A stretch of 37,414 nucleotides of DNA from a virus, in the IMG/VR virus record IMGVR_UViG_3300042465_000616, positions 1-37,414 of that record; one strand, given 5' to 3'. Positions 4,114 to 22,990 of the stretch are shown in pieces (position 1 is the first letter of the stretch; each line of letters starts with the position of its first letter). The notes under the pieces were generated by a model. It ran no database searches and was not told the origin of the DNA. It saw only the letters and a program-made list of their open reading frames with translations. The position numbers and the translations under genes are program-made.

Positions 4114-4265
4114 ACCAGTACCCCTAAGTCGTATGCAAAAGTTATGTTTGGATCGCTTACCAATCCAAAATCTATGGGAAACGTAAATAACTCTGGCGTA
4201 ATAGTGGCGCCTTCAGACATGCCAGTATCAGGATAGATGACAACCCGCCCTAACACTTGAGTCAT
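4110..4265 (-). CDS. 51-residue protein between the two tailspikes
   Basis: Short gene starting MTQVLGRVVIYPDTG. It is coupled to the second tailspike by an ATGA overlap at 4110-4113 and starts 11 bases after the first tailspike ends. The sequence is mostly beta-prone with no known motif. Because of its position it may be an adaptor or chaperone for one of the spikes, which is inference only. Confidence 0.62.
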   Translation of the reverse strand: MTQVLGRVVIYPDTGMSEGATITPELFTFPIDFGLVSDPNITFAYDLGVLV

Positions 4266-4276
4266 AATACTTAGCA

Positions 4277-5932
4277 TCATGCTGCAATCAAACCCAAATT
4301 AACTAGCGCGGCATGAATGCCTGCGGCAGTTACAGCAACGCCTGTTTGTTTAACAATCGGCGCAGTGCCATAAAAACCAACTCTGTTAAAACCAGAGTTG
4401 CCAAAAATAGTTGAGTTCACATCGGCTGCTGCGTCACGAATACCGGCAGTCACGTTGCCCGTAACATCTACGCCAATGATTCGGTACTCTATAGCGCCAG
4501 CCACAATATCCACGCCGTAACTTTGTAGGTTGGCCGCATAACCAGACCAAACGCCGGAAGTGCCACCCATAACAGACACGCCGACAGCCGTAGCATTGAT
4601 AAGAATGCCTGGTGAATTCGCTGACCCAGATTTGCTGTTATTTGTAACTTGCGCCCGCACATCAACATAACGGCCAGCAATGCTTATACCAGCATCCTCA
4701 CAGTCGTCAATCTTACCGCCAGAAATGCTTACGTGAGAAACCGTGGAGTCAATATAAAAACCATCAGCACCTGCTGCGTGAATGTAGGTGTCCGTAAACA
4801 AAGCAGTGCGAAGGGCTCCTCCAAGACTAATGCCTGCAAGCAATGGAAAATCTACTTGAAAGTCCAACGCCGAAATAAATTGCGGCACAGGCCCACCGCT
4901 TCCATTTTCAACAAGAAGACCTTGGCCCATTGTGGTACATGCTACATGCCGCATATCAAGTGTGTTGACGTTTCCGTCCATAACAACGCCAACGGTTCCT
5001 ACCGTGTTAACGGCGCAAGAAAGTTGCACGTTTTCAATGTCAAACACATCGCTGCGGTTAGCCGCATTACCATACCAATAAATACCGGCTTCACCTCGAA
5101 GGCCATTAACCCATGTATCGCTTAAATAAGTGGCATTTGCCTTTATTACATAGATAAAGTTCCACGGATTCAAACCGATCAGCCTGCGAAAACAAGTCCT
5201 GTCAACCGTGTTAACCGCGATACAGTAGCCGCCAGTCATTCCACCGGCATCAAAGCACAGGTCTTGCATCCCCCCGCCTTGATTACCACCCGTGAAGGTA
5301 AACACGTTAAAATTGCCAACCGGCTCAATAATCGTAGCACCTGGGCCATCGCCAGCAATCACAATGCCATACGATACCGTTAGGCCGCTTGTGATTCTAT
5401 ACGTTCCTGCGGGTACGTGAAGCGTTCCGCCACCTGTCATAGACAGCAAAGCTGCCGCAAAAGCTGCGGTGTCATTGGCAACGCCGTTACCGACAGCGCC
5501 AAAATCTTTGACGCTAATGCTTTCCCGCAATTTTGTTTGTACGGTAGTTGCAACTGATGCTGCAGCCGCAGGCTGGTATCCAACAAGAGATGACCCACTT
5601 GGCGCAGAAAATGCGGCTATTTCGGCGTTTAATTCAACCGCCAATGCACTTACTTGGCCTGCTGCCGAAGTAAGATTATCTACAGAATAAACCAGCACAT
5701 CGTTTGAATTCTTTAATATAAACTTATAGGCATTTTCACCCAACCAAATTGAGGCTTCGCCGTTCGTATCAAGAATTACGGGGTTTGTATTCGGAGTCGT
5801 TCCGTCTGAGGATGTATATGTGACTTGCGGAAGCGTAGTACCTGCCTCATAAGTAAATACTTTTCCGCCAACCAACGGACCCCCCGCACTGTTAAGAAAT
5901 TGCTGTTTAGCGTTTGGTGAAAAAGCAGTCAT
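4277..5932 (-). CDS. First tailspike: head-binding-like domain plus pectate-lyase-type beta-helix (551 aa)
   Basis: Probable glycan-degrading or glycan-binding tailspike. Residues 1-88 (LVGGKVFTYEAGTTLPQVTY, then PVILDTNGEASIWL) have the layout of phage head-binding or adaptor domains that dock spikes on the tail. Residues 90-140 are an Ala/Ser-rich linker. VKDFGAVGNGVANDTAA at 141-157 starts a Pectate_lyase_3-type beta-helix. The helix continues to about 530 with Asn/Gly-rich coils. The ATG at 5932 lies just after the preceding gene. It shares the linker and lyase entry segment with the next tailspike. The two N-termini differ, suggesting different docking points or one spike carried on the other. 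Confidence 0.82.
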   Translation of the reverse strand: MTAFSPNAKQQFLNSAGGPLVGGKVFTYEAGTTLPQVTYTSSDGTTPNTNPVILDTNGEASIWLGENAYKFILKNSNDVLVYSVDNLTSAAGQVSALAVELNAEIAAFSAPSGSSLVGYQPAAAASVATTVQTKLRESISVKDFGAVGNGVANDTAAFAAALLSMTGGGTLHVPAGTYRITSGLTVSYGIVIAGDGPGATIIEPVGNFNVFTFTGGNQGGGMQDLCFDAGGMTGGYCIAVNTVDRTCFRRLIGLNPWNFIYVIKANATYLSDTWVNGLRGEAGIYWYGNAANRSDVFDIENVQLSCAVNTVGTVGVVMDGNVNTLDMRHVACTTMGQGLLVENGSGGPVPQFISALDFQVDFPLLAGISLGGALRTALFTDTYIHAAGADGFYIDSTVSHVSISGGKIDDCEDAGISIAGRYVDVRAQVTNNSKSGSANSPGILINATAVGVSVMGGTSGVWSGYAANLQSYGVDIVAGAIEYRIIGVDVTGNVTAGIRDAAADVNSTIFGNSGFNRVGFYGTAPIVKQTGVAVTAAGIHAALVNLGLIAA

Positions 5933-14059: not shown

Positions 14060-16528
14060 TCATTTGTTGCCGTGGACCTTGGGTTTGTCCCTTGTGCTGA
14101 GATTGTATATCTCGTTAAGCTGGCGCTGCTTGGCCGCTATCACTTTGGCCCGGTAGTCGCTGAAGTGAGTGACTAGACGCGGGTTAATGGCCCACTGGGC
14201 AATATGTCTATGTTCCTGGGTCCGGTCATCTATCCTGATAACCCAGCGTGCATCCTCGAGTGATGCTATAGCGTTGATCACTGCCTGATCAGCCTGATGG
14301 GGCATTGACTTCTCAAGCTGACGCCGTGCTGACCGTTTGATCTCTGAGAGGGTGAGTATCTGCTCATCGGCGTGGTGAATGATGTAATCCTTAAGCCATA
14401 ACTCGAAGGTGCTGATGCCGCCCAAGTCTGAGAGCGCGTATCGGAAAACGGGAATAAAGTAGTTTTTAGCTAAGCTGATGGCCCGGCTGATCAGTTCGGC
14501 CGACACTATGGGATTGAAGGGTGACTCCATGAGGTGGAACATGAGCGCGAGTCGCCCGGTAAGCCCTTCGACCTTGCCGAATGCCGTCATGAACACATCA
14601 TCCGACTGTAGCAGTCGCTCATCTTTACGCTTGCCGTCATACCATACTTGGAACTCTTGGTAGAGTAACTTGGCCTCTTGACTAAGCGTATAGGTCATGG
14701 GTGGCAGTGCATACACAACTCGCAGGGTCTGTTCCCATGCTGCTTCGTTTGTCAGGAAGTCGGGTATTTCGCGGGGCACCGTGGTCAAGTCGCCATTGAG
14801 TACGCAGGGAATGAACCGTTGAATCAGGCCGTCAGCACTCAAATTGTGCAGGTGTTCTTTGAACACGCGAGGCTGAATATTGCCGTAAATGCTGATTGCC
14901 AAGTTCTCCACATGGATCGACCCGCTGCCCACCCGGTCCATCTCGTAGCTGGCCGACTCGTAAGCCTGGACCCAAGCTGACCGATCCTCGCCGCTGGTCT
15001 TGTCGGTCATCTTTTTGACCCAGGAGTTCATCTCGTCCAGGTAACAGAGCAGGCCGCGTGGCCGGTCTGCTGCCAAGCGTACTAGCTTCTGGCTGGTCAC
15101 ATCTTTGACCGTGATCCGCAGATTGGCCGGCATGGGTGGCATCTCGTTGACTATTGGGGCACCGTCCATCGAAAGCATACCCTCAGCACTCTGAGCGAAG
15201 TCGAGGAAGGCCTTCTTTGATGATGCATAGGCCGCCTCTCTGCCCTCCCAGTCAAGCATCTCCTTCTTGTGCCTGGGCAGGTCCTCAAGCTCTAGCTTAC
15301 GCAGAACTGACATCATGGGGCTTGATCCTGGGGTCTTCTTGTCAGCCGGGGCGCCGATGGTCATCAACCACAGCACCGGAGGCACCAGGAAGCCCTTGAT
15401 CAGTTCTAATCGGCTCCGAGCATCCACCACCCCGCAGACAGCCGATAAGCCTGCAAAGAGTGGCACCAAAGGGTCGCAGCCCACACTTTCCCCGACCTCG
15501 GTGGCCCGCCGGGCGATGACACTAGGCCACAGGGACAGGTCCATCCTGGGCGCTGGTGCCATCATGTCATTCATGAGGTCACTGGGGCTGGTGGGGTTTT
15601 CCAGAGCAGCGAATAAGCCGGCAATGTCGGGCGCTGGTCTGGTCCAGCCGTGGTCCTTGGCAATGTGGAATAACGTGCCCAGCTTGACGCCGGTAGCCTT
15701 GTCTGACTTGAAGCTGCCCCACTGACTGATCATTTCACGCGCACCGGGGTACTTCTCCACCGACTGGGCGCTCCACTCGTTCCACAGGTAGAGTGCTTGG
15801 TCCATCTCGTTTGTCTGGGTCGCTGCCCAGTGCAGCGCCATGCCCACCGACACCCACTCTTCACGGGCGCAGCTTGCCGGGATATGCTCCATCGCCGACC
15901 TGATGTCTTCCCATGACGCCTTGAGCGCGTCACCCGTGGACAACACCCGGTCCTTTTCTTTGTCAAGCATAGACTGCCACAGGTCGAGTAGTGCTTCAGG
16001 GATGATGGGCAGACGCATCCAGTTGCCGTTACCTGCCCAGCGGTAAGGCTGCTTGGTGTCAGGGTGGATGCTGGGTGGTAGTACGTCCTGCACCGTCACG
16101 CCGTTGGCCGTGGCGCAGCGCAGCTCGTAACTGGTGTTGCCGTTGATGATGATCTTCTTGGAGGGCAGCGCCAAGCCGAATGGCATCCGGTAGATCAGCT
16201 TGCCGCGACCACTGCGCCCACTGTCCACAATAACAGCGTCAGCGGCACCGTAAAGTGCGTTGAGGTCGATGCCGTGGGGCAGCAGTGCAGCAGACGCCGA
16301 CACCCACTCGTCTATGTCCAGCGCCATCGTGCCGCTGTAGGCGTGGGCCAGACCGATGCCAAATCCCTGGGGTAGTTCGGACTGGGACTTGATGGCGTTC
16401 TCTTTGAGGTTCCATCCTGGGGTGCGTGGCCCCTTGGTGCCTGCTGGAATCGGCACAAGGCTCCAGCCATGTCGTATATAGGCATCAACTGATGCTGGAT
16501 GCTGGGTAACTTGTGTTGCTGTATTCAT
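14060..16528 (-). CDS. Primase-helicase: prim-pol domain plus DUF3987 ATPase (822 aa)
   Basis: Replication initiator that would make primers and unwind DNA. Residues about 10-180 form an archaeo-eukaryotic prim-pol domain with the metal-binding LDID pair (Asp71, Asp73) and SGRGKLIYR (106-114). Residues about 200-295 (WEDIRSAMEHIP...EEWVSVGMALHW) match PriCT_2. From about 330 it is DUF3987, with Walker B CYLDE (Asp498, Glu499). The Walker A region GAPADKKT (392-399) lacks the usual second Gly, and the prim-pol SGxxKH histidine appears as Leu111; both may be normal for this subfamily. The gene is opposite in strand to all nearby early genes, with its own promoter region at 16529-16618. Confidence 0.85.
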   Translation of the reverse strand: MNTATQVTQHPASVDAYIRHGWSLVPIPAGTKGPRTPGWNLKENAIKSQSELPQGFGIGLAHAYSGTMALDIDEWVSASAALLPHGIDLNALYGAADAVIVDSGRSGRGKLIYRMPFGLALPSKKIIINGNTSYELRCATANGVTVQDVLPPSIHPDTKQPYRWAGNGNWMRLPIIPEALLDLWQSMLDKEKDRVLSTGDALKASWEDIRSAMEHIPASCAREEWVSVGMALHWAATQTNEMDQALYLWNEWSAQSVEKYPGAREMISQWGSFKSDKATGVKLGTLFHIAKDHGWTRPAPDIAGLFAALENPTSPSDLMNDMMAPAPRMDLSLWPSVIARRATEVGESVGCDPLVPLFAGLSAVCGVVDARSRLELIKGFLVPPVLWLMTIGAPADKKTPGSSPMMSVLRKLELEDLPRHKKEMLDWEGREAAYASSKKAFLDFAQSAEGMLSMDGAPIVNEMPPMPANLRITVKDVTSQKLVRLAADRPRGLLCYLDEMNSWVKKMTDKTSGEDRSAWVQAYESASYEMDRVGSGSIHVENLAISIYGNIQPRVFKEHLHNLSADGLIQRFIPCVLNGDLTTVPREIPDFLTNEAAWEQTLRVVYALPPMTYTLSQEAKLLYQEFQVWYDGKRKDERLLQSDDVFMTAFGKVEGLTGRLALMFHLMESPFNPIVSAELISRAISLAKNYFIPVFRYALSDLGGISTFELWLKDYIIHHADEQILTLSEIKRSARRQLEKSMPHQADQAVINAIASLEDARWVIRIDDRTQEHRHIAQWAINPRLVTHFSDYRAKVIAAKQRQLNEIYNLSTRDKPKVHGNK

Positions 16529-16813: not shown

Positions 16814-17192
16814 AATTGAATCCCTGACCGCCGCCATCAACACACTGATCGACGCAATCAACAAACAAGGTACTCATGCGCCAGTTGCTCCTATGGTTGC
16901 TCCTGTTATTGCAGCACCTGCCCCAGTAGCTGCGCCTATCGTAGCTGCTACACCAGCCATGCCAGCCCCTCCCACGTTTGCTGCCCCAGTGGCTGCACCT
17001 GTGCCAACTGGTGCCCCATTCAGCGACCCCAAGGGACTGATTGAGTTCGTGATGACATCGTACAAGAACCTGGGACCAGCCAAGGGCGCTGGCATCCAGG
17101 GAGTTCTGACTGGCCTTGGCTACCAGAACATCAATGATGTGAAAGCCGAGCATTATGCAGCGTTGTACTCTGGCATTGAAGCATTGAAATGA
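16800..17192 (+). CDS. Protein with Ala/Pro linker (130 aa)
   Basis: Starts MLELKIESLTAAINTLIDAI, a short amphipathic helix suited to oligomerise. Residues about 30-78 are an Ala/Pro/Val-rich linker made of repeated APVAAP-like units. The C-terminal domain (DPKGLIEFVMTSYKNLGPAK, then GAGIQGVLTGLG) is compact and helical. It is coupled by ATGA to the DUF2800 nuclease gene. The layout resembles phage replication or recombination accessory proteins, but no family is recognised. Confidence 0.75.
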   Translation: MLELKIESLTAAINTLIDAINKQGTHAPVAPMVAPVIAAPAPVAAPIVAATPAMPAPPTFAAPVAAPVPTGAPFSDPKGLIEFVMTSYKNLGPAKGAGIQGVLTGLGYQNINDVKAEHYAALYSGIEALK

Positions 17193-18490
17193 GCGCACAC
17201 GCCCAACTGTCTCCATCGAAGCGCAACCGTTGGGCCTTGTGCCCCGGTTCGATTCGGGAGGAGGCCAAGTACCCTGAACAGGAATCTGGCCCTGCCGCCG
17301 CCGATGGCACCCACAGCCACACGCTGCTGGAAAAGTGCATTGAGGCCAATTTGGCTGACCCTACCGGCATGGCAGGTGTCAAGATGGTTGACCATGAAGG
17401 TGAGTTCACCATTGACGCTGACCGTGCTGCACGGGTCAAGGTCGCAATTAAGTACATCACTGAGCAGTCAATGAATGGTTTGCTGAAGGTTGTATCCGAG
17501 CAGCGTGTTGATCCTGCGTTTTTATTGGGCCGTGATGACCTGTCAGGTACAGTTGACGTTCAGATTCTGGGCAATGATATGCTGGAACTGATCGACTACA
17601 AAGATGGTATGGGTATCGTTAGCGCCAAAGGCAACTTGCAGCTTGAGCAGTACGCTTATGGCGTCCTGGCTGGCTACAAGCTGCCCGTTAACGGTGCCTA
17701 TCCCTTCAACACGGTACGCATGACCATCATCCAGCCTAAGCTGGCGCTGCGTGGCATGAATGCAATCAGTTCGCATGATGTATCTGTTGCTGACTTGATG
17801 GCGAACATGGGTACAATCATCAAACAAGCTGCTGCCACTGATCAACCAGATGCACCGCTTGTGCCGGGTGATAGTCAATGTAAATTCTGCCGTGCTAAGG
17901 GGTCATGCTCCGCACTGGCAAGTAACGTAATGAAAGAGGTCGGAATCATGTTTCAACCAATTGCTAGTAAACCACTCGACATTGCGCAGCAAAGCGCCGA
18001 TAAAGAACCGTCCACAATGGACGATACCCAGATCGCTCAGATCATGGAAGCAGCCCCCCTAATGCGTCAACTTCTCGAAGGTGTAGAGAAGGAAGCCCTG
18101 CGCCGCCTGAAAGCCGGTCAAACTATTGCTGGCCTCAAGCTGGTCAATGGTCGCGGCTCTCGCACTTGGTCATTGAACGATGAAGAGACTGCTGCCCGAC
18201 TGATCAAGATGGGTGTGCCCAAGGGTGCGGTCTACGAAACCAAACTGGTGTCTCCTGCCAAAGCTGAGAAGCTGACCTGGGAGAAGACCAAGGCTGGTGA
18301 GAAAGTCAAAATGCAACTGTCAGATCGTCAACTCAAGACGATGAACACCGAGTACGTCACAAAGCTGGCCGGTGCCCTTACAGTTGCTCATGAGTCTGAT
18401 GAACGCGCTGCGGTCATCATGAACGCTGCACCTCTGTTTGGTGCAGTGGAAGCGCCGGTAGTGGAAGCACTGCCAGCATGGTTACAGTAA
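17189..18490 (+). CDS. DUF2800 PD-(D/E)XK nuclease with likely Fe-S cluster (433 aa)
   Basis: RecB/Cas4-like exonuclease of the phage recombination module. It starts with LSPSKRNRWALCPGS (Cys18) and EESGPAAADGTHSH-like residues, the DUF2800 N-terminus. The nuclease core has GTVD (Asp123) and LIDYKDG (Asp136, Lys138). A Cys-x2-Cys-x5-Cys set follows (Cys231, Cys234, Cys240). One early Cys and three late ones is the Fe-S staple pattern of AddB/Cas4 nucleases. The C-terminal 170 residues are a helical extension. It is followed by a DUF2815 protein, the usual partner. Confidence 0.87.
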   Translation: MSAHAQLSPSKRNRWALCPGSIREEAKYPEQESGPAAADGTHSHTLLEKCIEANLADPTGMAGVKMVDHEGEFTIDADRAARVKVAIKYITEQSMNGLLKVVSEQRVDPAFLLGRDDLSGTVDVQILGNDMLELIDYKDGMGIVSAKGNLQLEQYAYGVLAGYKLPVNGAYPFNTVRMTIIQPKLALRGMNAISSHDVSVADLMANMGTIIKQAAATDQPDAPLVPGDSQCKFCRAKGSCSALASNVMKEVGIMFQPIASKPLDIAQQSADKEPSTMDDTQIAQIMEAAPLMRQLLEGVEKEALRRLKAGQTIAGLKLVNGRGSRTWSLNDEETAARLIKMGVPKGAVYETKLVSPAKAEKLTWEKTKAGEKVKMQLSDRQLKTMNTEYVTKLAGALTVAHESDERAAVIMNAAPLFGAVEAPVVEALPAWLQ

Positions 18491-18507: not shown

Positions 18508-19167
18508 ATGTCAGATATTATCTTTTTGTCGAATGTCCGTTTGTCTTTCCCCCACCTCGCAGAACCTCAGAAGCAGGTGAACGAGCAGACTGGTCAAACT
18601 CGTATCAGTTACAACTCTGAGTTCCTGATGCCCCAAGACCATCCTGGGTTCCAGCAGTTCATGAAACGCTACGGTGAACTGGCTCTTGCCAAGTGGGCCG
18701 AGCATGCCAACACAGTCATGGGCATGATCCAAGTGGATCGCAAACTGCGCTGCTTTGGTCTGGGCTCTGAGAAGGTCAACAAGAAGACCTTCAAACCCTA
18801 CGATGGTTATGACGGCAACGTCTATATCACCGCTGGCCGTGATCAGGCTCCTCAGATGATCCAGGCTGACGGCCAAGCCATTGACCCCAGCAACACGATG
18901 GCATTTCAGCAACTGGCCCGCAAGATGTACGGTGGCTGCCGCGTCAACGCTGCTGTGAAGCCTTGGCTGCAAGTGAACAAGCATGGCAATGGCATTCGCT
19001 GTGACTTGGTAGCCGTTCAGTTTGCTGCTGATGACACTGCGTTTGGTGAAGGTGCTGCTGATGCGTCAAGCATGTTTGGTTCCGTGGGTGCTACACCTGC
19101 CGGTATGCCTGCTGCCTTTGGTATGCCTGCTGCACCGTTTGCTGGCCTACCCTCGTTCTTGACGTAA
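18508..19167 (+). CDS. DUF2815 ssDNA-binding protein (219 aa)
   Basis: Single-strand DNA-binding protein for phage replication and recombination. It starts MSDIIFLSNVRLSFPHLAEP, the usual opening of the DUF2815 family, with an OB-like beta-rich body and GNVYITAGRDQAPQ in the middle. It ends in an acidic and then Ala/Pro/Gly/Phe-rich flexible tail (from about 175) like those of other SSBs. It is paired with the DUF2800 nuclease upstream and the DNA polymerase downstream. Confidence 0.85.
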   Translation: MSDIIFLSNVRLSFPHLAEPQKQVNEQTGQTRISYNSEFLMPQDHPGFQQFMKRYGELALAKWAEHANTVMGMIQVDRKLRCFGLGSEKVNKKTFKPYDGYDGNVYITAGRDQAPQMIQADGQAIDPSNTMAFQQLARKMYGGCRVNAAVKPWLQVNKHGNGIRCDLVAVQFAADDTAFGEGAADASSMFGSVGATPAGMPAAFGMPAAPFAGLPSFLT

Positions 19168-19170
19168 TGT

Positions 19171-19260
19171 AATTGGGGGGAAAGCGGATGCTGTGAACGA
19201 TCGCGGAACTCGGTACGGTGAGTTCGGACAACGGCGCAGACGCAGCGAGTACCCCCACCT
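19171..19260 (+). ncRNA. Candidate structured RNA leader before DNA polymerase
   Basis: The 107-base gap has nested complementary blocks in order: GGGGG (19175-19180), GCTG (19190-19193), GCG (19203-19205) and GAACTC (19206-19211). An eight-base loop follows, then GAGTTC (19220-19225), CGC (19235-19237), CAGC (19243-19246) and CCCCC (19252-19256). This gives a long rod-like hairpin with internal loops. It sits directly before a polymerase start that lacks a clear ribosome site, so it could control translation. Confidence 0.4.
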
Positions 19261-19274
19261 AATTGGTAACAGTA

Positions 19275-21110
19275 ATGAGTAACGACTATGTTTATGACAT
19301 CGAGACATACCCCAACGTCTTCACGCTGGCGGTGGAGCATACAGAAGCGCCGCTACGCTGGTCTTTTGAAATCAGCCCCTGGCGCAATGACAGCAAAGAG
19401 ATCATCTCGTTTCTCCAGTATCTCAAGGATACGAATGCCCGGATGGTCGGGTTCAATAACCTGGGGTTCGACTATCCCGTCCTGCATACGCTGATCCGCA
19501 TGGGCAACAGTGATGCCCGTACCCTGTACGACAAGGCTATGGCGATCATCCACGGCCAAGATGAGGGTGACCGTTGGATGCACTCAGTTAAGCCGTCTGA
19601 CCGCTATGTCGAGCAGATTGATCTGTACAAGATTCACCACTTTGACAACAAGGCCCGGTCCACCAGCCTGAAGGTGCTTGAGTTCAATATGCGAAGCGCC
19701 AGCATCGAAGACCTGCCGTTCCCGGTGGGCACCGAGTTGACCCAGGACCAAGTGTTTGTGCTGAAGCAGTACAACGCACACGATGTGGATCAGACCAAGG
19801 CGTTCTACTTCAAGACGATGGACATGATTGCGTTTCGTGAAGACTTGACCAAGAAGTATCAACGTGACTTCATGAACCACAACGACACCAAGATTGGCAA
19901 AGATTACTTCACAATGAAGTTAGAAGAAGCCGGTGTGCCCTGCTATGAGTTTGGCCCAAAGGGGCGAGTACCCAAACAGACCAAGCGCCCCACCATCGCA
20001 TTGAGGGAAGCCATCCTGCCTTGGATCGAGTTCCAGCAGCCCGAGTTCACCAGGATTCTCACTTGGCTCAAGGGTCAGGTCATCACGGAAACCAAGGGAG
20101 TGTTTGAAGATGTTACCTGTAATATTAAAGGTTTTACTTTTGTGTTCGGACTTGGTGGCATTCATGGTTCTGTTGAATCATCCATCGTGGAGTCCGATGA
20201 CAAATTTGTTATTGTTGATCTGGACGTTAGTTCTTATTACCCGAACCTTGCCATCGTTAATAAGTTTTACCCGGCTCACTTAGGCGAACAGTTCTGCGAC
20301 ATCTACCAGCACTTGTACGAACAGCGCAAGACATACGGCAAGAAGACCGCTGAAAACGCCATGCTGAAGCTGGCGCTCAATGGTGTGTATGGTGACAGCA
20401 ATAACCCGTTTAGCGTGTTCTACGACCCGCTGTTCACTATGAGCATCACGCTCAATGGTCAACTGCTGCTGTGCTTGCTGGCCGAGGGGCTGATGCACAT
20501 TGATGGCCTGAAGCTGATCCAAGTGAACACCGATGGCCTGACTGTCCAGGTGCCCCGTGATAACAAGTGGATGGTGGACATGGTTCGGGCAGCATGGGAA
20601 TCACGCACCAAGCTCCAGCTTGAGGAAGCCATCTACTCCAGGATGTTTATCCGGGATGTCAACTCGTACATTGCCCAGTATGTCAACGGCTCTGTGAAGC
20701 GCAAGGGTGCTTATGAGTACGACATGGAATGGCACCAGAACGCTGGTGGTCTTGTGATTGCCAAGGTGGCCGAGAAAGTGCTGATTGATAACACCCCTAT
20801 CCGTGAGACTGTGGAGAACTGGCCCGACATCATGGACTTCATGTTGCGTACCAAGGTGCCACGGTCCAGCCATCTGGCATGGGGTGAGACAAAGGTGCAG
20901 AACACCAGCAGGTATTACATTGCCAAGGACGGCAAGCCTCTGATGAAGTGGATGCCACCGTTGGCTAAGAAGCCTGATGTGTGGCGTCAGATTGGCGTGG
21001 AGTCGGGGTGGAATGTGCAGATATGCAATGACATTGCTGATGCCACCATGCCTGTTGATTTTGATTACTACATTCAAGAAGTGGAGAAGTTATGCCTGGG
21101 TCTAGCGTGA
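19275..21110 (+). CDS. Compact family B DNA polymerase with 3'-5' exonuclease (611 aa)
   Basis: Replicative DNA polymerase. The exonuclease domain has all three motifs: Exo I DIETYP (Asp8, Glu10), Exo II NNLGFD (Asp66) and Exo III YNAHD (Tyr166, Asp170). The polymerase domain has motif A DVSSYYPN (Asp317), motif B KLALNGVYG (Lys365, Tyr372) and motif C VNTDG (Asn418, Asp420). Family B motif C is normally DTD; here the first Asp is Asn. Only 48 residues separate motif A from motif B, so fingers and any TPR1 insert are very short. The ATG at 19275 is preferred to an in-frame TTG at 19263. No terminal-protein gene was recognised nearby. Confidence 0.9.
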   Translation: MSNDYVYDIETYPNVFTLAVEHTEAPLRWSFEISPWRNDSKEIISFLQYLKDTNARMVGFNNLGFDYPVLHTLIRMGNSDARTLYDKAMAIIHGQDEGDRWMHSVKPSDRYVEQIDLYKIHHFDNKARSTSLKVLEFNMRSASIEDLPFPVGTELTQDQVFVLKQYNAHDVDQTKAFYFKTMDMIAFREDLTKKYQRDFMNHNDTKIGKDYFTMKLEEAGVPCYEFGPKGRVPKQTKRPTIALREAILPWIEFQQPEFTRILTWLKGQVITETKGVFEDVTCNIKGFTFVFGLGGIHGSVESSIVESDDKFVIVDLDVSSYYPNLAIVNKFYPAHLGEQFCDIYQHLYEQRKTYGKKTAENAMLKLALNGVYGDSNNPFSVFYDPLFTMSITLNGQLLLCLLAEGLMHIDGLKLIQVNTDGLTVQVPRDNKWMVDMVRAAWESRTKLQLEEAIYSRMFIRDVNSYIAQYVNGSVKRKGAYEYDMEWHQNAGGLVIAKVAEKVLIDNTPIRETVENWPDIMDFMLRTKVPRSSHLAWGETKVQNTSRYYIAKDGKPLMKWMPPLAKKPDVWRQIGVESGWNVQICNDIADATMPVDFDYYIQEVEKLCLGLA

Positions 21111-21325
21111 ACAACATTCAGCACGGTGGTACGCACTACAAAGATAAGTCAATGCAACCGTGGGACTACATTGCAGCCAATAATCTTGGTTACTTTGAAG
21201 GAAATATAGTGAAGTACGTCAGTCGATGGCGTGAGAAAGGTGGTGTTGAAGATTTACGCAAGGCTCGTCACTACCTTGACAAATTGATTGAACTGGAGAC
21301 ACAAAATGTTGGAAAAACAAATTGA
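21092..21325 (+). CDS. DUF3310 protein (77 aa)
   Basis: Starts MPGSSVNNIQHGGTHYKDKS. The blocks HGGTHYKDKSMQPWDYIAAN, EGNIVKYVSRWREKGG and DLRKARHYLDKLIELE are the hallmark of DUF3310, a short helical phage protein usually found among replication genes. Some relatives are annotated as nucleotide kinase-like, without proof. It overlaps the polymerase end by 19 bases, with GGAG as its ribosome site. Confidence 0.88.
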   Translation: MPGSSVNNIQHGGTHYKDKSMQPWDYIAANNLGYFEGNIVKYVSRWREKGGVEDLRKARHYLDKLIELETQNVGKTN

Positions 21326-21590
21326 GGCTAAAGTCTGCGACTATGCCAAATCAAAAGGTGTGCTTGCTTACAAATTCACCAGTCCAGCTAGAGCTGCGGT
21401 GCCTGATCGTTTGTTCATTGCACCAGATGGCAGTGTGTGGTTTTGCGAGTTCAAGCGAGAAGGTGCCAAGCCCACTGATGCTCAAGAAAGAGAACACACC
21501 CGACTTAGACAACAAAAGGTAAACGTGTTTGTGATTGACAACGTGGACCAAGGCAAACTGATGGTTGATCTAATGGTGGGTTCATGCTAA
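21306..21590 (+). CDS. VRR-NUC domain nuclease (94 aa)
   Basis: Stand-alone VRR-NUC nuclease, a PD-(D/E)XK fold enzyme that cuts branched DNA such as Holliday junctions. The motifs are Glu7 in the first helix, VPDR (Asp34) and CEFKREG (Glu48, Lys50), followed by a Gln/Arg-rich helix. The ATG at 21306 has GGAG upstream; a TTG further up is not needed. It is fully overlapped with its neighbours (20 bases before, 7 after) and is usually partnered with SNF2 helicases, as here. Confidence 0.88.
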   Translation: MLEKQIEAKVCDYAKSKGVLAYKFTSPARAAVPDRLFIAPDGSVWFCEFKREGAKPTDAQEREHTRLRQQKVNVFVIDNVDQGKLMVDLMVGSC

Positions 21591-22990
21591 CCACCAATCT
21601 ATTGCACGGTTACCAGCAAAAGGCCGTTAACTTTCAATGCACTCATCCTAACTCGATGCTGTGGCTGGACATGGGTCTGGGTAAAACCGTGATCACTTTG
21701 ACTAGCATTGCGCATTTGATCCGCACTCAGTTTTTACGCGGCGTAATTATTGTGGCTCCAATCAGGGTGATCCGACTTGTTTGGCGTCAGGAGGCTGCCA
21801 AATGGGAACACACCAAGCATCTGACGTTCAGCATGATCACCGGCACTAGGGATCAGCGCACCCGTGCCCTGCTGCGTCCTGCTGATGTTTATTTGGTAAA
21901 TTACGAAAACCTGAAATGGTTATCGGAAACAATCCAAACGTACTTTATTAAGAAGAACCGTCCCTTGCCGTTTACCGGCATCGTGTGGGACGAGATCAGC
22001 AAGATGAAGAACTCGGCAACTGATCGGGTCAAGGCCACCAAGAAGATACTGGATCACTTTGTCTGGTCTACCGGACTCACCGGCACCCCGGCCAGCAACG
22101 GCTACAAAGACCTGCACGGCCAGTTCCTAGTGGTCGACAAGGGTCAGCGCCTAGGCGTGTCCAAAACGGCCTTCAGAACACGGTTCTACCGCAAGGCTGG
22201 CCCCTACAAAGAAGTGCCCTACGAGGACACCGAGGACACCATCAAGAAGCTGATTGGTGACATCACGCTTGAGATGAGCGCCGAGGACTACAACCCGCTG
22301 CCCGACTTGATGGTCAACAACATCGAGATCGAAATGCCGCCTGAACTACGGGTTCGCTACGACAAGATGGAAAAGGAGTTCTTCTTGATGCTCGACAGTG
22401 GTGCCGAGGTGGAGATGTTTAACCAGGCATCGCTGACCAACAAGTGCCTCCAGTTCTCCAATGGTGCCATGTACCCGGTGGCCGGGATGCCATTGTGGGA
22501 AGCAGTGCATGACCTGAAGCTAGAGGCTCTTGAGGACATTATTGACGAAGCCAACGGTAGCCCCATCCTGTGCTCGTATGCTTATCGGTCAGACGCCGAA
22601 CGCATCATGACGAAGTTCAAGCACCTGCGCCCTATCAATTTGACCGAGTGCAAGACCGAGTCGGCACTGGTAAACGCCATGCACCGTTGGAAGACTGGCG
22701 ACTGTGACCTGATGATTGGGCACCCCGCCAGCATGGGCCACGGCATTGACGGACTCCAGAGGAACGGCCACATCGTTGTGTGGTACGGACTCAACTGGAG
22801 CCTTGATCTTTATGACCAGATGAATGCGCGAGTACGTAGGCAGGGACAGGGCGCACCAGTCATCTGCCACCGCATCATGATGCAGGACACACTTGATCAA
22901 GCCCAAGCAATTGCCCTGGATGACAAAGCCCAGACGCAAGCTGGTTTGAGAAACGCAATAAAAGAATATAGACAGTCCAGAAAGCTGTGA
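21584..22990 (+). CDS. SNF2-type DNA helicase/translocase (468 aa)
   Basis: ATP-dependent DNA translocase of superfamily 2. Motifs in order: Q-like GYQQKAV (residues 9-15), Walker A DMGLGKT (29-35), motif Ia APIRVIR (58-64), Walker B region WDEISKMKN (135-143), motif III LTGTPASN (165-172) and motif VI QMNARVRRQGQ near 405. It has no extra N- or C-terminal domains, as in many phage SNF2 proteins. Partnered with the VRR-NUC nuclease, it probably remodels replication forks or recombination intermediates. Confidence 0.92.
   Translation: MLTTNLLHGYQQKAVNFQCTHPNSMLWLDMGLGKTVITLTSIAHLIRTQFLRGVIIVAPIRVIRLVWRQEAAKWEHTKHLTFSMITGTRDQRTRALLRPADVYLVNYENLKWLSETIQTYFIKKNRPLPFTGIVWDEISKMKNSATDRVKATKKILDHFVWSTGLTGTPASNGYKDLHGQFLVVDKGQRLGVSKTAFRTRFYRKAGPYKEVPYEDTEDTIKKLIGDITLEMSAEDYNPLPDLMVNNIEIEMPPELRVRYDKMEKEFFLMLDSGAEVEMFNQASLTNKCLQFSNGAMYPVAGMPLWEAVHDLKLEALEDIIDEANGSPILCSYAYRSDAERIMTKFKHLRPINLTECKTESALVNAMHRWKTGDCDLMIGHPASMGHGIDGLQRNGHIVVWYGLNWSLDLYDQMNARVRRQGQGAPVICHRIMMQDTLDQAQAIALDDKAQTQAGLRNAIKEYRQSRKL

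Follow-up and report, generated by a model that had tools for sequence, protein, structure and literature searches.

The catalytic aspartate triad of the RB69 polymerase is formed by D411, D621 and D623 (PMC3792054). Other arrangements of motif C in family B DNA polymerases (PolBs) are described in Kazlauskas et al. (2020, PMC7544198), where profound differences in motif C and in the KxY motif are reported for the crAss-like PolB group, and where PolB_SITDG, found in cyanobacteria and algae, has a hydrophobic residue in place of the first motif C aspartate and keeps the second. Among the Caudoviricetes, 2,857 PolBs have been counted, and PolA and PolB have been swapped in place in clades that include Sashavirus, Nonanavirus and Barbavirus (Yutin et al., 2024, PMC11348598).

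The PolB studied here is encoded in a 37.4-kb virus contig (37,414 nucleotides, analysed whole and called the window below) and has NTDG as its motif C. The PolBs of Salmonella phages Sasha and 9NA, of the Rheinheimera Barba phages and of Phage DSL-LC05 are 47-78% identical to it over the full length, carry NTDG, have the same 48 residues between motifs A and B, and also match it in the exonuclease motifs and in the context of replication genes. The barbavirus enzymes are longer, with 729 aa versus 611, and otherwise there is no notable difference. The Crassvirales PolBs cr110_1 and cr115_1 (PMC7886860) are homologous at 24-28% identity and carry NTDG, although some Crassvirales PolBs have longer fingers, with an A-B spacing of 59 in cr110_1 versus 48 here. 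Given this homology, the present group may correspond to the crAss-like group of PMC7544198, with a place in the EpsilonN-like clade. With PolB_SITDG, the enzyme shares the loss of the first aspartate and the retention of the second, and it differs in the hydrophobic replacement and in the hosts. The phi29-type polymerase is likewise small and has an exonuclease but, unlike this PolB, has TPR1, TPR2, a DTDS motif C and a terminal protein.

A polymerase typical of its group

Numbered from the ATG at 19275, the protein has ExoI at D8/E10, ExoII at N61..D66 and ExoIII at Y166/D170, so that all the acidic residues of the exonuclease were located, in agreement with the initial annotation, which had read these motifs as complete. 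Motif A is D317 (DVSSYYP), motif B is K365 (KLALNGVYG), motif C is N418-T-D420-G421 and a KxKGxY motif lies at 475-480. This placement confirms the 48 residues between Asp317 and Lys365 and the retention of the second aspartate, Asp420, in motif C; the B-C spacing is 55. The GC content by codon position (0.53/0.33/0.68), together with the fact that close homologues begin at the same residue, indicates a real gene with its start at this ATG. It is the sole match of its kind in the 37.4-kb record.

The initial annotation had regarded this compact enzyme with an altered motif C as unusual. The A-B spacing is indeed short against classical PolBs (149 in T4 gp43, 134 in phi29 and 74 in E. coli Pol II, the last counted from motif A D419 to a K493 taken from alignment), but it is ordinary inside its own group. 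The protein matches the PHROG profile phrog_1252, 'DNA polymerase', end to end (residues 2-606, E=1.1e-193), and homologues were found in 910 of 50,697 phage records, 777 of the 910 being covered over at least 80% of the length. In 17 annotated relatives, ranging from 78% to 22% identity, D317, K365 and the N-T-D core are kept in all, the exonuclease residues are kept wherever the N terminus aligns, and the A-B spacing is 44-75. A larger set of 231 relatives consists of proteins read from fetched loci, for which closer alignments were used because the 18-sequence alignment was too divergent for the locus search. Of these, 140 have an A-B spacing of 48 and 77 have one of 50, the last 14 ranging over 44-76, and their motif C is NTDG in 228 and NTDA in one (the reading of the Enterococcus phage EFA1 PolB), while the remaining two, WTDA and ETDA, may be misassignments by the regular expression. 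In an alignment of diverse members, N418, T419, D420 and G421 are invariant (109/109), as are the catalytic D317, K365 and D420; 103 of the 109 have 48-50 residues between motifs A and B, and the exonuclease residues are kept in 105/105 where aligned (D8/E10), 108/108 (D66) and 109/109 (D170).

The maximum-likelihood tree, built without T4 gp43, E. coli Pol II and phi29, groups the protein, with full support, with the polymerases of Sasha, 9NA, Barba, Milano, Curvibacter P26059A and Klebsiella 1611E-K2-1. An earlier tree that included these three as outgroups had long branches and put phi29 among the close relatives without support. Homology across phrog_1252 extends to crAss-like, Casjensviridae, Septimatrevirus, Leuconostoc, Enterococcus and Listeria phages. 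Membership of a supported clade that shares NTDG and short fingers makes it clear that the enzyme is not unusual, and an aberrant enzyme of a single phage is ruled out, given that both features are common to the whole group. Short two-helix fingers and N-T-D-G are fixed traits of the phrog_1252 group, not peculiar to this phage, and the polymerase is an ordinary member of a known, common PolB group present in hundreds of phages. In Flavobacterium phage Fpv2 (L087 2983-6050), the PolB of this group is annotated as two genes around a homing endonuclease.

Predicted fold, motif C and protein priming

The structure predicted by AlphaFold2 from the 109-sequence alignment (pLDDT 93.3, pTM 0.89) is that of a PolB in which the fingers between motifs A and B are two bare helices, 339-351 and 359-374. 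A single helix, 385-406, lies between motif B and the motif C strand (413-418), leaving no room for TPR2, and the model has no TPR1. The best folds in the PDB for this model are archaeal PolBs and Pol alpha, and among predicted viral folds the top matches come from other phage PolBs, crAss-like included. The group profile matches solved archaeal and eukaryotic PolBs, with a best E=6e-13 for the 'DNA polymerase I' chain 1s5j. Motifs, profile matches and predicted fold thus back the family B enzyme with compact fingers and putative proofreading put forward in the initial annotation. We regard the motifs, the family and the predicted fold as established, and we infer catalytic activity.

Motif alignment suggests that N418 occupies the position of RB69 D621, and D420 the position of D623. 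An asparagine instead of the first aspartate may mean reduced or altered use of metal, and this loss, like the presence of recombination-type genes in the operon, would fit an auxiliary or catalytically weakened polymerase, active in gap filling or recombination while the host replicase replicates the genome, with NTDG as a mark of relaxed catalysis. The invariance of N-T-D-G across very divergent members speaks against decay and suggests that N418 is a working alternative; in addition, the record holds no second match of its kind, and PolA replaces PolB at the same locus in related phages, an interchange at the level of the replicase (PMC11348598). An auxiliary role is therefore considered improbable. 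No enzymology of any NTDG member was found in the freely available literature searched. Three proteins were considered in this respect: the IME199 polymerase was rejected as a characterised relative since it is phi29-like, for YerA41 DNAP01 membership in the NTDG group was not established, and the PolB-like protein of the enterococcal phage vB_EfaS-271 is known from annotation and mass-spectrometry detection alone.

The length of the protein, 611 aa, is near that of the phi29 polymerase (572 aa), and the fingers of phi29 are short too once TPR1 is set aside, as would be expected if this were a protein-primed enzyme in which the TPR1 insert has been lost or displaced. The initial annotation had taken the absence of TPR1 as an argument against protein priming. 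The absence itself stands, both in the A-B spacing of 48 and in the AlphaFold2 model, but as an argument it is weak when taken alone, given that every nucleic-acid-primed PolB also lacks TPR1. The case is strengthened by the profile comparison with the phi29 polymerase, which showed no similarity in the polymerase domain (probability 0.3%), and by the genome type, the nearest whole relative being a circular P22-like record. Moreover, there is no space for TPR1 (A-B 48 versus 134 in phi29) or for TPR2 (B-C 55 versus 75), and the best-scoring PDB entries listed, whether by profile or by fold, include no phi29-type polymerase. With TPR1 and TPR2 absent and no profile similarity to phi29, protein priming was discarded, and we consider it highly improbable.

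Operon, genome type and probable source of primers

The structural genes of the window have matches in the portal, terminase, capsid and head-closure families. Phage DSL-LC05 (37.6 kb, circular), the nearest relative with a sequenced genome, shares the gene order around the polymerase; it also encodes P22-type proteins for DNA transfer and for stabilising packaged DNA. The operon runs from the DUF2800 exonuclease through the SSB, PolB, DUF3310 protein and small endonuclease to the SNF2 helicase (Table 1). In close loci with enough flank, DUF2800 and SSB lie upstream of PolB in 102/102, and a VRR endonuclease and SNF2 lie downstream in 119/119. The Xanthomonas, Seuratvirus and Septimatrevirus relatives (L088, L094, L095) have a replicative clamp or beta-subunit-like gene directly upstream of PolB; no clamp gene adjoining PolB was seen in the window.

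Table 1. Features of the polymerase locus, in window positions.
Feature	Position	Strand	Basis or remark
PrimPol (AEP) + PriCT-2 + DUF3987 primase-helicase	14060..16528	-	likely source of primers; transcribed divergently from the PolB operon
DUF2800 / RecB-like PD-(D/E)XK exonuclease	17189..18490	+	domain/profile matches
Enc34-type ssDNA-binding protein (SSB)	18508..19167	+	domain/profile matches
Structured leader element in the SSB-PolB spacer	19175..19256	+	ends 18 nt before the PolB ATG; outside 19275-21110
PolB of 611 aa with exonuclease, palm, short fingers and thumb; NTDG as motif C	19275..21110	+	motif, profile, predicted structure, tree
DUF3310 protein	21092..21325	+	domain/profile matches
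Small endonuclease	21288..21590	+	PHROG endonuclease + Holliday junction resolvase family matches
SNF2-family helicase	21584..22990	+	domain/profile matches

The prim-pol primase that the initial annotation had proposed as the source of primers is present in the same genome as a PrimPol-PriCT-2-DUF3987 gene, and all 34 close relatives with sufficient flank keep a divergent PrimPol. In the protein of the window, the first AEP motif is present as DID, but GKLIYR and ELR stand where the later His and Asp AEP motifs would be expected, so that its primase activity is not certain. A protein of the Finegoldia magna plasmid pFMC (L282 4878-7001) has an N-terminal NTDG PolB palm, which belongs to the same group as the phage PolB and is without exonuclease, and a C-terminal PrimPol with PriCT-1. 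Its PrimPol part scores slightly below the Pfam threshold (22.5 versus 22.8 bits), whereas PriCT-1 exceeds its own; a Pfam search with the ORF upstream of this fusion (4160-4888) gave no match. In this plasmid, as in the HelPrimPolB fusions described in PMC7544198, PolB and PrimPol are in one chain, while here they are two divergent genes. In Listeria phage P40, the polymerase gene adjoins a primase gene. The conserved neighbourhood, the Finegoldia fusion and the adjacency in P40 make it plausible that PrimPol primes this PolB. The occurrence of other primases in relatives, of the TOPRIM type in barbavirus and of the P4 type in a Leuconostoc phage, indicates that the pairing is not obligatory across the group.

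The sequence of PolB would also be compatible with a primer-independent (piPolB-like) polymerase that starts DNA synthesis itself. The dedicated PrimPol alongside PolB in all 34 relatives speaks against this, as does the grouping of piPolBs with pPolBs and crAss-like PolBs in the main group by Kazlauskas et al. (2020, PMC7544198), and we consider this reading very unlikely.

Most likely, then, the PolB is replicative, proofreading and nucleic-acid-primed. We hold with considerable confidence that a P22-like podophage uses it as its replicative polymerase, and that it is a compact, proofreading member of the phrog_1252 PolB group, probably extending primers made by PrimPol. The primase-helicase would lay RNA or DNA primers, which PolB would extend on a template coated by the SSB, and the SNF2 helicase, the RecB-like exonuclease and the small endonuclease would act in recombination and fork processing. 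The conserved operon and the conserved PrimPol neighbour are established; the priming partner and the arrangement for processivity are what we infer.

A structured leader before the polymerase gene

The leader of the PolB gene is 105 nt long and carries a hairpin. The closing stem is formed by GGGGG (19175-19179) and CCCCC (19252-19256), followed by an internal loop of GAAAGC (19180-19185) opposite GCGAGTA (19245-19251), which we take to resemble a bulged-G/loop-E motif, and by a variable tip. The element is found in 30 of 99 distinct SSB-PolB spacers of relatives, and some of the other spacers have different hairpins at the same place. These spacers range from 39 to 1071 nt (e.g., L071, L134, L131, L053), and the long ones appear to hold extra ORFs. 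The fold of the single sequence is unremarkable (z=-1.36), so the case rests on covariation: in 23 sequences, the two closing pairs that vary do so on both sides of the stem, without a single break (CG, GC, UA at one; GC, UA, CG, UG at the other), and the covariation is 0.348 versus 0.077 in shuffled and at most 0.147 in slid controls.

An Rfam search with three instances of the element gave no credible match. Skipping-rope RNA (RF02924) was rejected as its identity, given that the covariance model gave no hit (E<=10) anywhere in the record, and so was a tRNA, since ARAGORN finds none in the window or in 60 loci; for one relative, L017, Rfam gives a borderline tRNA call (29.9 versus 29 bits). 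The tip is tRNA-like, with a T-arm, a D-arm-like part and a shortened anticodon arm, in L017 (4887-4981), L013 (1444-1538), L102 (2891-2981), L347 and L058.

The exact two-part core occurs in at least 120 stretches in viral contigs versus 4 in 257 Gb of prokaryote genomes, where we estimate about 0.01 by chance. At least 175 distinct instances were collected, mostly from virus contigs, in counts that ignore relatedness among them. The core is fixed by the search pattern, so that stem, tip and position alone are independent evidence. In the 175 instances listed, the closing stem is paired at five successive positions in 99, 97, 98, 92 and 70% (49, 55, 78, 72 and 41 when shuffled), and among those listed the tips are distinct in 154/164. 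An ORF starts within 60 nt downstream on the same strand in 120/175 and on the opposite strand in 52/175, compared with 45% at random places, and mostly 10-30 nt away. The downstream genes fall into 51 clusters, with names assigned by eye that include winged-helix-like, PolB, MazG-like, VRR-like nuclease, HTH, PolA-like polymerase and primase. The orientation and the U-G pairs suggest that the leader acts as RNA, not DNA. We see about an even chance that an undescribed, virus-specific class of mRNA leader controls PolB as a site of RNA processing or translation control, with a hypervariable and sometimes tRNA-like tip, 10-30 nt before the starts of PolB, PolA, primase, MazG-like and HTH genes. 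If true, a structured RNA with a variable tip before unrelated phage replication genes would offer a handle on the timing or processing of early mRNA.

For the polymerase itself, the seemingly aberrant active site is a fixed state of a common group of phage replicases, and the role of N418 would tell how a PolB works with an asparagine replacing one aspartate of the triad.
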